DNA of 37,051 nucleotides from contig JAJDNY010000151.1 in the NCBI GenBank assembly GCA_022340425.1, positions 1 through 37,051 on the forward strand, in the 5' to 3' direction. The translations under genes were made by a program, and so were the position numbers. Every line of letters begins with the position of its first letter. The first letter of the stretch is position 1. Below are positions 26,513 to 31,894 of this stretch, in pieces. This DNA is from Desulfobacteraceae bacterium. GTDB taxonomy: Bacteria; Desulfobacterota; Desulfobacteria; Desulfobacterales; JAABRJ01. Under the pieces are notes generated by a model. It had not been told where the DNA came from. It was given only the letters and a program-made list of their open reading frames with translations, and ran no database searches.

Positions 26513-27136
26513 TCAGCCCCTGGCGGTGACCTGCTCCGCCAGGCAGCCGCGACACACCTGCCGACCGTCGATGCTCTGCAGTTTGGAGGCCATGGTGGGC
26601 TCGCCGCAGCGGGCGCAGGGCAGGGACTTGTCGATCCGGGCCTTGGGCGGCGGCGCCATCGTCACCGGCGAGAGCTTGAAGAGCCGCTCCTCGGGCATCT
26701 CCAGCATTTCCCGGCTGCGCTCCAGGTGCAGCGCTTCGAAGCGCTGCCGCTCGTCATCGCCGGCTTGGCCGCGGATGACCTTCTGCAGCAGGGCGAAGTG
26801 CGCCTCGTCGGGCGCGAAGGCGTCCGGTCGCATGACCACCCGCACCCCGTCGCCGCTGGTGCGGCTGAAGAGGGTCAGGGCCATCTTGCCGTAATCCTTG
26901 TGAATGAAATTGCCCTTGCCGAAGGTGCAGCCGGTCAGCACCTGGACCGCATCGGCCGAGCAGGCGTCGGTCTCCACCACGGCCACCAGCTCCTCATCGG
27001 CCGAGCGGTTTTCACGCAGCCAGGCCATGGCCGCCGCCGCCGCCCGAAAGCCGATCGAAAGCCCCGGGCAGACATGGCCGTGAAAGGCCGCGCAGCGCTT
27101 GAAATCCTCACCTTGCATGATGGTGTCTGCGTTCAT
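26513..27136 (-). CDS. FmdE-family protein with C-terminal zinc ribbon
   Basis: The protein has 207 residues. The FmdE fold is marked by CAAFHGHVCPGLSIGFRAA (~15-33) with the metal-binding HGHxCPG, then VETDACSADAVQVLTGC and TFGKGNFIHKDYGKMAL. The C-terminus carries a CxxC...CxxC zinc ribbon (LPCARCGEPTM, then QVCRGCLAEQ). FmdE was named from the tungsten/molybdenum formylmethanofuran dehydrogenase operon, but most homologues outside methanogens have unknown function and are often near metal transport. AAGGAG precedes the ATG. It is 19 bp downstream of the TrmO-like gene and belongs to the metal cluster by position. Confidence 0.9.
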   Translation of the reverse strand: MNADTIMQGEDFKRCAAFHGHVCPGLSIGFRAAAAAMAWLRENRSADEELVAVVETDACSADAVQVLTGCTFGKGNFIHKDYGKMALTLFSRTSGDGVRVVMRPDAFAPDEAHFALLQKVIRGQAGDDERQRFEALHLERSREMLEMPEERLFKLSPVTMAPPPKARIDKSLPCARCGEPTMASKLQSIDGRQVCRGCLAEQVTARG

Positions 27137-27155: not shown

Positions 27156-27716
27156 TCACGGGGTCTTGTCCGCGGCGTCGTCGGCCAGATCCCGCTGGAT
27201 CTGCAGCAGCCACTCCGGGAAACGGGGGTTTTCGACGCCGTGGTAGATTTCGACGTAAGGCTTGATGTCGATGATCGGGCTGCCGTCCACCGCCTCCAGG
27301 GACCGCACCCGGAGGATGTTCCCCGCCCGCCCCAGCAGGGGCACGGTCGAGATCAGCACCGGGTTGGGCCGGGCCGGGCTGCGGGTGGCGAAAATCCCCT
27401 GCAGCGGCAGGTCCTTGCGCCCCATGGGGTGCACCCGGCGCAGCTTGCGGCGCTCCGGGGCCACCAAGTGCGGCCAGTAGAGCACCACGATGTGCGAAAA
27501 GGCCTCGATCCCGTCCAGGATCCCCTCCAGGCGCGGGTCGATGACCAGCTCCGAGACCAGGTCCTTGAGCTGCCGGTGCTGCGCGCGAATCTTCTCCAGG
27601 CGCTCTTTGAGCTCCAAGTCGCTGTTGCCGGCCCCCAACAGCGGGGTCTTGATGGCGCTGCGCACCACGCCCACCGGCTGCAGGGATATTTCCATTTCCA
27701 CCAGCTCCTCTGCCAT
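27156..27716 (-). CDS. TrmO/TsaA-family protein (tRNA t6A methyltransferase-like)
   Basis: The protein has 186 residues. The family signature is clear: LQPVGVVRSAIKTPLLG, GIEAFSHIVVLYWPHL, HPMGRKDLPLQGIFATRSPA, RPNPVLISTVPLLG, and DGSPIIDIKPYVEIYHG. E. coli TrmO (YaeB) methylates t6A37 of tRNA-Thr using SAM in a beta-barrel fold. This copy has a ~25-residue extra stretch near residues 40-65 (ERLEKIRAQHRQLKDLVSEL) and sits in a metal-transport cluster, so its substrate may differ. AAAGGAG precedes the ATG. It is followed after 19 bp by the FmdE-like gene. Confidence 0.88.
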   Translation of the reverse strand: MAEELVEMEISLQPVGVVRSAIKTPLLGAGNSDLELKERLEKIRAQHRQLKDLVSELVIDPRLEGILDGIEAFSHIVVLYWPHLVAPERRKLRRVHPMGRKDLPLQGIFATRSPARPNPVLISTVPLLGRAGNILRVRSLEAVDGSPIIDIKPYVEIYHGVENPRFPEWLLQIQRDLADDAADKTP

Positions 27717-28252: not shown

Positions 28253-29344
28253 CTAATCCCCAAAACCCGTCGGGGCGCCGATGGGGCCCCAGTCGGCTTG
28301 CATCTGATCGTAGACCGGGGCGCCCAGGAGAAAGGTGTAGATCGTGTCGGCCATGGCGGCGGGGTCGATGTCGTCGAAGCGCTCCGGGTAAAGGCGCTTG
28401 CCCACCGCCCAGGCGTTGGTCAGGGCCGTGCCGATGTTGGTGGTGTAGAAATTGAAGGGCAGCAGGGTGTAGACTCGGCGGTTTTTGAAAGCCTGCAGGC
28501 TCTGGTAGTAGCCGGGCTTTTTGCGGTAATCGGCCGCCACCAGCTCCAGCCCGCCGCCGTCGACGAAGATCACCTCGGGATCGAGCTTGAGCAGGATTTC
28601 CTTGTCCACAAAGAGATGGCTGCCCACGCGGGCCTCCACCCGCTCGGCCAGATTCTCGGCGTTCACCCAGGCGAGCGGCATGTACTGCTGCTCGGTGCTT
28701 TCGATGCCGTGGCTGCCGCGGTAGCCGATCCCGCCCACATAGACCCGGGCCCGTTTTTCGGGGGGGATGTCGGCGGTGCGCCGCCGCAGTTCACGCCGCT
28801 GGTCTTCGATGAAATTCACCACCGCTTCGGCGCGCGCCGTCCGGTTTAAAATTTCCCCGGCCACCCGCAGCGCCTGGAAGACCGCTTCGTCAAAGGTGGC
28901 AAAGGCGCCGTAGCTCAGCACCACCACCGGTACCCCCAGAGTCTGCTGCACCTCGTCGGCCAGGGCCGCGTCCATGTAAGTGACGAAAATCACCTCGGGC
29001 CGGGCCCGCAGCAGGGCCTCCAGATCGGGTTTTTTGTTAATGCTGGCGGGCCCGCCGGGACCCACCACCGGCAGCCGCGCCAGATCGGGGGACGCCATCC
29101 AGTAAGGGCGGCCGCGGGGGCTGCGCTTCTCCATCTCCTCCACCCCAACCACCCGGTCCTGGGCCTGGAGATAGACGATCAGCCGCAGGGCCCCCGGCCC
29201 CAGGCAGACGATGCGCTCGGGGTCAAACGGCGCGCTCACCTTCCGCTGGGCCATGTCCGTCACCGTGACCGTGGCGGCGCCGGCCGATGCCGCCGCCAGC
29301 AGAACGATCACGCCAATGCCCCATCCCCATCTTTTCCCGATCAT
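28253..29344 (-). CDS. Periplasmic substrate-binding protein of a FecBCD-type (metal-complex) ABC importer
   Basis: The protein has 363 residues with a signal peptide (GWGIGVIVLLAAASAGAATV). It belongs to the class III binding proteins (FecB/BtuF fold): VTDMAQRKVSAPFDPERIVC, LIVYLQAQDRVVGVEE, two lobes joined by a long helix, ILLKLDPEVIFVDGG and RLYPERFDDIDPAAMADTIY. Relatives bind iron-siderophore, heme, cobalamin or other metal chelates; the ligand is not readable. Its ATG overlaps the ATPase stop by 4 nt (ATGA). The CooT gene upstream suggests a nickel-related ligand (inference). Confidence 0.92.
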   Translation of the reverse strand: MIGKRWGWGIGVIVLLAAASAGAATVTVTDMAQRKVSAPFDPERIVCLGPGALRLIVYLQAQDRVVGVEEMEKRSPRGRPYWMASPDLARLPVVGPGGPASINKKPDLEALLRARPEVIFVTYMDAALADEVQQTLGVPVVVLSYGAFATFDEAVFQALRVAGEILNRTARAEAVVNFIEDQRRELRRRTADIPPEKRARVYVGGIGYRGSHGIESTEQQYMPLAWVNAENLAERVEARVGSHLFVDKEILLKLDPEVIFVDGGGLELVAADYRKKPGYYQSLQAFKNRRVYTLLPFNFYTTNIGTALTNAWAVGKRLYPERFDDIDPAAMADTIYTFLLGAPVYDQMQADWGPIGAPTGFGD

Positions 29345-30111
29345 TGCCCCTCCCCCGCCGGGGCCACCGGCACCACCACCGCCTGCCCCCGCACCATGGC
29401 GATCTCGACATCCACCCCGTAGACCTCCCGCACCAGGGCGGCGTCCACCTCCCGACGCGGGACCCGGGCGTGGACCCGGTGGTCCTTGAGAAACAGAAAG
29501 TGATCCGCGAAGCGCAGGGCCAGGTTGAGATCGTGGATCGAGACCACCGCCGCCAGCCCGTCCGAGTGGACGATGCGGCGGATCAGGCCCAGCACCTCCA
29601 GCTGGTTCCGGAGATCCAGGCTGCTGGTGGGTTCATCCATCAGCAGGATTTTGGGAGACTGCGCCAGAGCCCGGGCGATGATTACCTTCTGCAGCTCACC
29701 GCCGCTCAAAGCGCTCACCGGCCGGTGGGCCAGCGGCGCCAGCCCCATGGCCTCCAGGGCCGCCTCGACCCGGTCATAATCCGCCCGGCCGGCCTTCCAG
29801 CGGATGTGCGGCTTGCGGCCCACAAAAACCGCCTCGAAAACCGTCAGCCCGCCCTCCGACGCCTTTTGGGGGATGTAACCCACCCGCCGGGCGATCCGCT
29901 GGCAATCCATCCGCAGCAGGTCCTCGTTTTCCAGCAGCACCGTTCCCTGCTGGGGGGCGAGGATCCGGTTGAGGCATTTCAGCAGGGTGGATTTTCCGGC
30001 GCCGTTGACCCCCAGGACCCCAAGGATGCGCCCGGCCCCCAGCTCGAAGCCCACATCGTCCAGCACCGCCCGGCCGTTGTAGGCGAAGCGGATCTCCGCC
30101 GCCGTCAGCAT
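29341..30111 (-). CDS. ABC transporter ATP-binding protein, FecE/BtuD type
   Basis: The protein has 256 residues. Walker A is GVNGAGKSTLLK (~33-44), the Q-loop is YIPQKASE, the signature is ALSGGELQKVIIARALAQSP (~133-152), Walker B is ILLMDEPTSSLDLRNQ, and the H-loop is VVSIHDLNLALR. The protein drives the permease at the cytoplasmic membrane. Its ATG shares one base with the permease stop (TGATG), and its stop overlaps the binding-protein start, so the three genes are translationally coupled. Confidence 0.96.
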   Translation of the reverse strand: MLTAAEIRFAYNGRAVLDDVGFELGAGRILGVLGVNGAGKSTLLKCLNRILAPQQGTVLLENEDLLRMDCQRIARRVGYIPQKASEGGLTVFEAVFVGRKPHIRWKAGRADYDRVEAALEAMGLAPLAHRPVSALSGGELQKVIIARALAQSPKILLMDEPTSSLDLRNQLEVLGLIRRIVHSDGLAAVVSIHDLNLALRFADHFLFLKDHRVHARVPRREVDAALVREVYGVDVEIAMVRGQAVVVPVAPAGEGQ

Positions 30112-31148
30112 CAGTGCCGCCCCCGCACCAGCAGAAAGAGAAACATCGGCGCCCCCATGAACGAGGTCACCACCCCCACCGGCAGGGCCCCGGAGCCGAT
30201 CAGCACCCGCCCGACGGTATCGGCCAGCAGCAGCAGCAGGGCCCCCAGGATCGCGGAGAAGGGGATCAGGAGACCGTTTTCCTCGCCCACCAGGCGCCGG
30301 GCCAGGTGGGGCGCGATCAGCCCGACAAAAGCGATCACGCCGTGGAAGGCGGTCACCATGGCGGCGACCAGCGCCGCCGCCAGCATGCCCTGCAGCCGCA
30401 CCCGGGCCACGTTGGTGCCCAGGCCCCTGGCGGCCTCCTCGCCGGCGGTCAGGGCGTTGAGGTCCCAGCGCCGGATCAGAAGATAGACCATCGTCATCAG
30501 GCTGACGGCGGCCACCAACCCGATCTCGCCCCAGTTGGAGCGCGCCACGTCGCCGAAGGTCCAGAAGACCACCACCGCGAGTTCCGTCTCGGTGGCCAGA
30601 TACTGCACCAGAATCGTGGCCGAGGCGAAGAGCGAGGAGAGCGCCACCCCCGCGAGGATGATCGCTTCGGGTGAAAGCTGGCGGAGACGCGCCAAAGTCA
30701 GAATGATCAGGGTGGCGCCCATGGCGCCGGCAAAGGCGAAAACGGTCACGGAGAAGACCCCGGCGCCGAACACGACGATGGCCAGGGCGGCGCCAAAAGC
30801 CGCTCCCTGGCTGATGCCGAGAGTGGAGGGCGAGCCCAGCGGGTTTTTGAGCAGGGTTTGAATGCCCAGCCCGGCCAGCGACAGCCCGCAGCCGGAGACG
30901 ACGGCGGCCAGGATCCGGGGCAGGCGGATCTTCCAGACGACCACATCGGCGGCCTCCGGGGCCCTTCCCACCAGCGCCTGAAGAACCTTAAAAGGCGACA
31001 GGTCGTAGGCCCCCTGGCCCACCGCGAAGACCCCCACGGCAAACGTCAATCCGGTGAGGCCCGCCAGCCAGAGGGCTTTTTGGCGCAACTGCCGGCGATA
31101 AGCGGCGGCAAGTCCCCCGCCGGGGGTGGTGATCCGACTGTCCTTCAT
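30111..31148 (-). CDS. ABC transporter permease, FecCD/BtuC family
   Basis: The protein has 345 residues with about ten membrane segments. Family landmarks: RLPRILAAVVSGCGLSLAG, QTLLKNPLGSPSTLGISQGA, IILAGVALSSLFASATIL, RGLGTNVARVRLQGMLAAAL (the ATPase-coupling region), and FVGLIAPHLARRLVGEENGL. It forms a homodimer for import. The in-frame ATG at 31148 is preferred to a GTG at 31214 because the extra N-terminal sequence is not family-like; the Shine-Dalgarno sequence is weak. It follows cooT by 130 bp. Confidence 0.95.
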   Translation of the reverse strand: MKDSRITTPGGGLAAAYRRQLRQKALWLAGLTGLTFAVGVFAVGQGAYDLSPFKVLQALVGRAPEAADVVVWKIRLPRILAAVVSGCGLSLAGLGIQTLLKNPLGSPSTLGISQGAAFGAALAIVVFGAGVFSVTVFAFAGAMGATLIILTLARLRQLSPEAIILAGVALSSLFASATILVQYLATETELAVVVFWTFGDVARSNWGEIGLVAAVSLMTMVYLLIRRWDLNALTAGEEAARGLGTNVARVRLQGMLAAALVAAMVTAFHGVIAFVGLIAPHLARRLVGEENGLLIPFSAILGALLLLLADTVGRVLIGSGALPVGVVTSFMGAPMFLFLLVRGRH

Positions 31149-31278
31149 CTCTTTAAAACCCCTGGGGCACGGGCAAAGCCCTGGGTGGGCGCTTCGCCTC
31201 GAGGGGCGCGGCACCGGGATGGTGTCGCGGGGCCAAGGTCAAGCCCCCCGCTGACTGCAAGCGCCGGTCAGCCCGGCG

Positions 31279-31467
31279 TCATTCCTCGAAGAGTATCTTG
31301 TGGTTGACCAGGTTCATGCGCTTGATGCGCCCCCGGACGATCTTCTGGTCGCCGAAGATGCCCACCAGCCGGAAGACCCCGTCCTCTTCGGGTTCCACCA
31401 GGTCCACGGCCTGCATCAACAGCTCTTCCTTGCCGTCCTTGACGAAATAGGCATTGGCTTCACACAT
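31279..31467 (-). CDS. CooT-family nickel-binding protein
   Basis: The protein has 62 residues: MCEANAYFVKDGKEELLMQA, then VDLVEPEEDGVFRLVGIFGD and KRMNLVNHKILFEE, a full match to the CooT pattern. In Rhodospirillum rubrum, CooT serves Ni insertion into CO dehydrogenase and binds Ni as a homodimer through Cys2; Cys2 is present here. AAGGAGGT, located inside the end of the DUF3842 gene, precedes the ATG. The 8-nt overlap (ATGTGTGA) with DUF3842 shows tight coupling. The neighbouring metal-complex importer makes nickel uptake the leading idea. Confidence 0.9.
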   Translation of the reverse strand: MCEANAYFVKDGKEELLMQAVDLVEPEEDGVFRLVGIFGDQKIVRGRIKRMNLVNHKILFEE

Positions 31468-31894
31468 GGTTGATTACCTCCTTGATTTTTCCTTCCACCG
31501 CGCGCTGCACCAGGTGCGGCAGCGGCTCCCAAACCACCCCGATGATCTCGATCGGCTCCTGGGAAAAGGGCACCAGCACCTTCAGCGCCGGGCTCGAGGT
31601 GACCGCCGCCGCCATGGCCGGGGTGACCTCGCCCAGCATGGCGTTGGCCCAGGTCACGCTGATCGGCCCGACGATGCAGTCCGCATGGGCCACACAGTGG
31701 CAGATGGCGTTTTCACCCGAAGCCCCCTTGTTGGCGCCGGCCTTGAGCATCTGGGCGGTGGCGATGGCGTTGGTGCCCAGAGCGATCAGTTCGACGCTCT
31801 CGCCGAAAGCTTCCTTGATATATTTGATGAGGGTGGCCCCGATGCCGCCCCCCTGGCCGTCCAACACACAGATTCGTTTACGCAATATGTTCAT
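31460..31894 (-). CDS. DUF3842 family protein
   Basis: The protein has 144 residues. The start RKRICVLDGQGGGIGATLIK has a glycine loop as in Rossmann or P-loop-like folds. It is followed by LIALGTNAIATAQMLKAGAN, GENAICHCVAHADCIVGPIS and AAAVTSSPALKVLVPFSQEP. Two Cys/His pairs (CHCVAHADC) could bind metal. The family has no established function; its coupling to CooT suggests nickel homeostasis. The start is uncertain: the ATG at 31894 sits directly on an AAGG, and a TTG at 31885 has better spacing. Confidence 0.85.
   Translation of the reverse strand: MNILRKRICVLDGQGGGIGATLIKYIKEAFGESVELIALGTNAIATAQMLKAGANKGASGENAICHCVAHADCIVGPISVTWANAMLGEVTPAMAAAVTSSPALKVLVPFSQEPIEIIGVVWEPLPHLVQRAVEGKIKEVINHV

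Follow-up and report, generated by a model that had tools for sequence, protein, structure and literature searches.

In R. rubrum, CooT is a dimer that binds one Ni with the involvement of Cys2, and it is needed for growth on CO under nickel scarcity; how exactly it acts, and how it works together with CooC and CooJ, is described as unknown (PMC6006190). As regards metal import, a role in nickel uptake has been assigned to NikK and NikL, and cobalt has been suggested in the case of five proteobacteria (PMC2667541); in Helicobacter pylori the permease of the NiuBDE importer is acted on by SlyD, a cytoplasmic metal-binding chaperone (PMC7840056). In the DNA described here cooT is preceded by a gene of the DUF3842 family (PF12953). 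A literature search on 'DUF3842' and 'PF12953' retrieved no paper mentioning either, and the text searched of a 2026 study on the context of CO dehydrogenase (PMC13056359) contains no 'DUF' match.

The window, that is, the whole stretch of DNA analysed, comprises 37,051 nucleotides from a Desulfobacteraceae bacterium of the phylum Desulfobacterota (contig JAJDNY010000151.1), and the features of interest are collected in Table 1. A first-pass annotation, made from the letters alone, had given the coordinates and both family assignments, which the Pfam profile search places far above the cut-offs; CooT also matches the solved CooT structure 6fan (E 3.1e-13). The overlap between the two genes and the ribosome-binding site of cooT inside DUF3842 are likewise found as that annotation described them. 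The overlap ATGTGTGA provides the start codon and the Cys2 codon of cooT, and in the other register the TGA stop codon of DUF3842, which falls within the Met-Cys-Glu codons of CooT (the protein begins MCEAN). The annotation had further claimed that both proteins are made in a fixed ratio; the sequence gives an arrangement fit for translational coupling, and no ratio.

Table 1. Features of the DUF3842-cooT locus (positions in the window)
Feature	Position	Strand	Details
DUF3842 gene	31460..31894	minus	144 aa; Pfam PF12953, 179.8 bits (curated cut-off 28.5), E 3.9e-53; model positions 1-128 of 130
DGQGGGIG glycine loop, residues 12-19	codons 31838..31861	minus	near-invariant
CHCVAHADC, residues 65-73	codons 31676..31702	minus	not conserved
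AGGAGGT, Shine-Dalgarno sequence of cooT, inside DUF3842	31476..31482	minus	
8-nt overlap ATGTGTGA	31460..31467	minus	cooT start, Cys2 codon, DUF3842 stop
cooT	31279..31467	minus	62 aa; start Met-Cys-Glu; PF10133, 88.3 bits (curated cut-off 27), E 4e-25
FecCD-type permease	30111..31151	minus	PF01032, E 6.3e-88; longer frame from GTG at 31214 possible
ABC transporter ATPase of FecCD-type importer	29341..30111	minus	PF00005, E 4.6e-34
Substrate-binding protein of importer	28253..29344	minus	PF01497, E 3.4e-18
TrmO-like protein	27156..27716	minus	PF01980; TIGR00104 over cut-off
FmdE-family protein	26513..27136	minus	PF02663, E 2.3e-44; C-terminal zinc-finger match

The same arrangement was looked for in 151 distinct DUF3842 loci, obtained from a scan of named genomes and from whole genomes. 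CooT lies within 1 kb downstream in 121 of them, and the exact 8-nt overlap is present in 90 of these 121 CooT-linked loci, a tally into which L049, with a frameshifted DUF3842, enters twice. The overlap is found in two phyla (71/87 in Desulfobacterota, 19/34 in Bacillota). Cysteine is the second residue of CooT in all 121 linked loci, with ATG, GTG or TTG as start codon, and its codon is TGT in 90/90 overlapping pairs and in 21/31 of the other linked pairs. A four-base Shine-Dalgarno-like stretch precedes cooT in every one of the 90 overlapping pairs, and GGAGG or AGGAG occurs within the 21 nt that precede the stop of DUF3842 in 78/90 coupled genes versus 2/30 unlinked ones. Given that TGC would abolish the built-in stop, the constant TGT codon and the kept Shine-Dalgarno sequence indicate that the start of cooT shapes the tail of DUF3842, and at the level of sequence the arrangement supports translational coupling. 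In six Bacillota loci the gene order is reversed, with CooT upstream of DUF3842 and the adjacency kept.

Co-occurrence of both families elsewhere, on which the first-pass annotation had staked its proposal, is found in 84/84 of the DUF3842 genomes of Desulfobacterota and in 85/135 of those of Bacillota. Among 247 Desulfobacterota genomes DUF3842 is present in 84 and CooT in 139, 55 of the latter being without DUF3842; among 299 Bacillota genomes (the phylum of G247) the figures are 135 and 91, with DUF3842 lacking CooT in 50 and one CooT genome, G450, below the family cut-off. The association has Fisher p values of 8e-29 and 4e-31, respectively, with genomes counted as independent despite their relatedness. 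The genome match tables provide lower bounds for linkage: CooT lies within 1 kb downstream for at least 81 of 94 DUF3842 matches in Desulfobacterota (a tally that leaves out one match below cut-off, in G012, E 8.9e-4), and among the 150 DUF3842 matches listed for Bacillota it is downstream of at least 61, upstream in reversed order in at least 6, and neither in 83. In a DUF3842 tree of 169 rows, built on few columns and with rough support, CooT-linked copies occur in both phyla with 11 label changes, compared to a shuffled mean of 42.7. CO dehydrogenase (TIGR01702) is found in 71/84 Desulfobacterota and 73/85 Bacillota genomes holding both DUF3842 and CooT, so most of them, not all, have this possible client. 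The genome of the window itself contains a second DUF3842 copy without CooT (L183:9668-10120, i.e. G000:C172:26712-27092), lying right behind parA-/parB-like genes and before an ispH-like gene, as named by eye.

Downstream of the pair the window holds, in this order, the FecCD permease, its ATPase and binding protein, and then TrmO and FmdE; no NCBIfam equivalog for the ATPase or the FecCD-type importer of the window is over cut-off. For the comparison of neighbourhoods, genes were clustered by similarity, each cluster taking the Pfam name of its representative, or a name given by eye where Pfam had none. In part of this clustering the CooT cluster absorbed some DUF4198 proteins via fusions, which makes the DUF4198 counts drawn from it low. 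The labels NikK-like, NikL-like, ExbB, MnmE, GidB and RuvA/B in the locus maps are working names given by eye or, for NikK and NikL, from context, and Pfam gives DUF4198 or no family for the 'NikK' and 'NikL' genes. The selection-free count of uptake genes refers to L003-L057 and the window, whereas L184-L189 (long CooT frames), L190-L202 and L203-L222 were picked by hand out of larger lists. A metal-uptake component lies within 6 kb in 30 of 45 CooT-linked loci (44 of L003-L057 and the window, all close relatives of the window's DUF3842) and in none of 11 unlinked loci, which mostly belong to one clade; the other 15 linked loci have no uptake gene at that distance. The components are of the ECF nickel/cobalt, NikK/NikL-like or DUF4198 kind in 17 loci, FecCD or its binding protein in 9 and TonB-system genes in 15. 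In L022 and L051 the DUF3842-CooT pair stands between NikM/CbiM and NikQ/CbiQ genes.

Genes for metal insertion are also present in this environment. A CooC-like ATPase is encoded in L040, L044 and L046, three loci related to the importer region of the window; that of L040 has CooC (3kje) as best PDB match, and this locus also contains a HycI-type protease gene. In L184 the pair is followed by HypA, HypB and both [NiFe]-hydrogenase subunits, and HypA/HypB were recognised by cluster in L185 and L186; no match to CO dehydrogenase at E 1e-100 was obtained in the six genomes of L184-L189. Among 25 genomes with DUF3842 and CooT and without CO dehydrogenase, [NiFe]-hydrogenase is over cut-off in 18 and not in 7, and in G306, G343, G372, G422 and G531 it is encoded on the same contig as the pair, at a distance of up to about 14 kb. 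FmdE lies near the pair in 11/59 linked loci. The six Bacillota loci selected by the length of their CooT frames have DUF3842 first, FmdE second and then CooT with a fused domain, identified by Pfam as DUF4198 in both cases tested (L188 and L189). The window's FmdE-family protein has 2gvi, 3d00 and 2glz as PDB relatives, and a mixture of zinc and nickel was present in one FmdE crystal, the protein having been purified on nickel resin (PMC2954224).

Several side observations were made in these loci. L188:5787-6587 and L189:4032-4832 each encode a single CooT-DUF4198 protein in which a histidine run (HHHH or more) separates the domains; this natural fusion may tie CooT to nickel uptake. A gene for a TrmO-like tRNA methyltransferase is found repeatedly next to DUF3842-CooT, in the window, L041:6729-7875 and L046:9470-10021, and is joined by FmdE in the window and in L041; the presence of a tRNA-modification gene in a metal locus is unexpected.

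Riboswitches were sought in 54 loci and the window. No NiCo riboswitch was detected in this set, nor any cobalamin riboswitch in the window; cobalamin riboswitches are present in L012, L022, L026, L051 and L202. Moco riboswitches occur in L184, L186-L189, L207 and L210, and are close to DUF3842 at L184:6986-7106, L186:3222-3342 and L207:5399-5517; that of L184 stands ahead of hypA in the same orientation, where one would hardly expect a molybdenum/tungsten switch. The NikR site GTGTTAC-N13..15-GTAACAC, with up to two mismatches, gave 2 matches in 76 sources versus a shuffled mean of 5.6, its enterobacterial form gave none and the reversed form one. As these matches are not above chance, there is no sign of NikR control.

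The DUF3842 protein itself carries both motifs that the first-pass annotation had read in it, GQGGGIG (residues 13-19) and CHCVAHADC (residues 65-73), and the two fare differently in the homologue alignment. The glycine loop is near-invariant, with D12, G15, G16 and G19 kept in 168/168 sequences, and N42 and E89 in 169/169. The Cys/His cluster, proposed as able to bind a metal, is not a meaningful feature: among 169 distinct sequences only the window's own keeps all five positions, and 111 lack Cys and His at every one of them, so the cluster was rejected as a metal site. With an invariant glycine loop and no conserved metal cluster, DUF3842 would not itself be the metal site. No Walker A motif GxxxxGK[ST] is found in the glycine-loop columns of the 169 sequences (the window's loop is DGQGGGIGAT) and no Pfam P-loop family matches the window's protein, which led to rejection, from sequence, of a P-loop NTPase identity.

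An AlphaFold2 model of DUF3842 (46 sequences; pLDDT 90.5, pTM 0.87) predicts a Rossmann-like fold. The best rows of VIA-align are lactate/malate dehydrogenases, alcohol dehydrogenases, methylglyoxal synthase and FtsZ, closely tied at Z of about 8 to 9.6 (top: Z up to 9.6, rmsd 4.3 over 127), and Foldseek, with FtsZ among its fold matches, reaches a best E of 2.1e-4 with TM-scores of 0.5 or less. In the comparison with Rossmann dinucleotide-binding proteins the model and the fold matches agree, but the Z values are tied across families and the malate dehydrogenase profile stays at control level. Profiles of FtsZ (20 sequences) and malate dehydrogenase (19) were compared with hhalign: DUF3842 against FtsZ gave a probability of 0.32 percent, similar to unrelated controls, although FtsZ against malate dehydrogenase aligned with 74 percent under the same settings. 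On these control-level scores, kinship of DUF3842 with either family finds no support. Profile searches found no PDB relatives up to E 1, and a single-sequence PDB search up to E 10 returned chance-level rows only. Of the label 'NTP-dependent' given in the first-pass annotation, the near-invariant glycine loop and the Rossmann-like model speak in favour; with no P-loop and no FtsZ or malate dehydrogenase profile match, the label is unproven. The fold of DUF3842 with CooT, calculated from the in-frame read-through chain of L069 alone (mean pLDDT 90.8, pTM 0.68), has no confident interface, the relative position of the domains being uncertain.

DUF3842 also occurs without CooT, in other company. 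From the 50 Bacillota genomes with DUF3842 and no CooT, 20 loci were picked; a cluster of ECF S-components (three members tested, all PF12822) lies near DUF3842 in 11 of them, and L211 and L214 have CooT-less DUF3842 near CbiM-type transporters. Among L003-L057 and the window, CobU/CobS genes are near DUF3842 in 7/11 unlinked versus 1/45 linked loci. In L055:5944-6908 DUF3842 and cobU share a few bases, an overlap showing that a copy without CooT can be tied to a cobalamin gene by the same kind of coupling. In L208, L212, L215, L216 and L218 the CooT-less gene is accompanied by an ECF S-component and a protein with a weak match of its C-terminal part to nucleoside-kinase models (L212:8693-9757), a cluster possibly devoted to vitamin salvage. 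With ECF transporters and cobU/cobS as neighbours of the CooT-less copies, DUF3842 may serve importers or corrinoids more generally and not nickel alone, CooT being the partner that is specific to nickel.

Taken together, it is quite likely that DUF3842 and CooT constitute a two-gene module. The overlap kept in two distant groups, often beside metal-import genes, suggests joint nickel handling; co-occurrence and the neighbouring uptake and insertion genes support a nickel-handling module with CooT, and nickel is probably its metal. The joint claim, that this is a translationally coupled module for handling nickel in the cytoplasm and that nickel is its metal, is moderately probable. Ribosomes ending DUF3842 would re-start on cooT, so that both proteins would be made side by side; nickel would enter via the neighbouring importer (of the NikMQO/CbiMQO type in many loci, of the FecCD type here), and CooT would receive it and hand it to the insertion machinery, CooC for CO dehydrogenase or HypA/HypB for [NiFe]-hydrogenase. 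DUF3842, rather than being a metal site, would most likely act as a nucleotide- or small-ligand-responsive partner, and the specific proposal that it gates the loading or unloading of CooT or of the importer is somewhat doubtful. More broadly, and tentatively, DUF3842 might be an unrecognised ligand- or nucleotide-gated link between importers and CooT, and the pair a general nickel-delivery route of anaerobes for [NiFe]-hydrogenase and CO dehydrogenase, with co-synthesis written in the nickel-ligand codons of CooT.

Other explanations have to be weighed against this module. The overlap could be inherited operon packing without any functional tie, the Met-Cys-Glu codons of cooT being a ready stop for any upstream gene in register: ATGTGTGA gives TGA in the needed register, and such an overlap is therefore easily made and easily kept, in genomes that are related and not independent. 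Nevertheless, the pair is kept in two phyla, in reversed order (6 loci) and with FmdE in between (6 loci), the Shine-Dalgarno sequence is a property of coupled tails (78/90 versus 2/30), and uptake genes are near linked copies only (30/45 versus 0/11), which makes packing alone very unlikely. The first-pass annotation had proposed that DUF3842 is a nickel chaperone that depends on NTP and has a Cys/His cluster able to bind metal; such a protein would be of the kind of CooC or HypB. The glycine loop on a Rossmann-like model and the association with CooT and nickel-insertion genes fit this idea; however, the cluster is complete in a single sequence out of 169, the loop DGQGGGIGAT is without the GK[ST] of CooC and HypB, the FtsZ and malate dehydrogenase profiles score at control level, and DUF3842 is present in addition to CooC-like or HypB genes where those occur. 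Such a chaperone is improbable: what survives of the proposal is a partner of CooT in nickel handling, to which co-occurrence, the overlap, its survival of gene reversal and the importer, CooC-like, HypA/HypB and [NiFe]-hydrogenase neighbours all point, and what is lost is the metal site of its own.

A more serious alternative is that DUF3842 is a general partner of ECF-type or other importers, or a cobalt/corrinoid factor, for which nickel via CooT would be one specialisation. The CobU/CobS genes near unlinked copies, with the small DUF3842-CobU overlap of L055, the PF12822 S-components in 11/20 picked loci, the CbiM-type genes of L211 and L214 and the cobalamin riboswitches of five loci argue for it. 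On the other hand, the CobU-linked copies of Desulfobacterota form one clade of 8 rows (CobU/CobS in view in 7) nested among CooT-linked ones, the riboswitch of L202 sits between DUF3842 and CobU, no cobalamin riboswitch was found in the window or in the loci with the closest importers (L040, L044, L046 and L049, whose binding protein is 61-69 percent identical), and the HypA/HypB and hydrogenase neighbours point to nickel. This alternative is a credible minority reading, and the nickel-handling module of DUF3842 and CooT is preferred.

When the locus is compared with known systems, the likeness to CooT/CooC/CooJ of R. rubrum lies in the CooT family, the Met-Cys start and the nickel-insertion context (PMC6006190), and in the CooC-like ATPase of three relatives of the window's locus. 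The R. rubrum operon is described with cooC, cooT and cooJ and not with DUF3842 (PMC6006190), whereas here CooT is coupled to DUF3842 and placed beside importers, and six loci belong to genomes without CO dehydrogenase. A conserved partner coupled to cooT makes the question of CooT, CooC and CooJ directly testable.

The window's FecCD-type system is a putative nickel importer. The NiuBDE system of H. pylori is of the FecCD type. As an ABC transporter, NiuBDE imports both nickel and cobalt (PMC5140060), and the action of SlyD on its permease (PMC7840056) is a precedent for a gating partner, although SlyD is unrelated by family to DUF3842 or CooT. The nickel ECF transporters NikMQO/NikKMLQO (PMC2667541, PMC545781) have counterparts in the CbiM/NikM, CbiQ/NikQ and DUF4198, NikK-like or NikL-like genes near the pair and in the CooT-DUF4198 fusion, while the window's own importer differs in being of the FecCD type. 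Finally, the HypA/HypB system for hydrogenase nickel insertion adjoins the module in L184 and, by cluster, in L185 and L186. HypB belongs to the P-loop family CobW/HypB/UreG, and DUF3842 has no such domain. That the pair adjoins hydrogenase genes in genomes where CO dehydrogenase has no match suggests a role of CooT beyond CO dehydrogenase.
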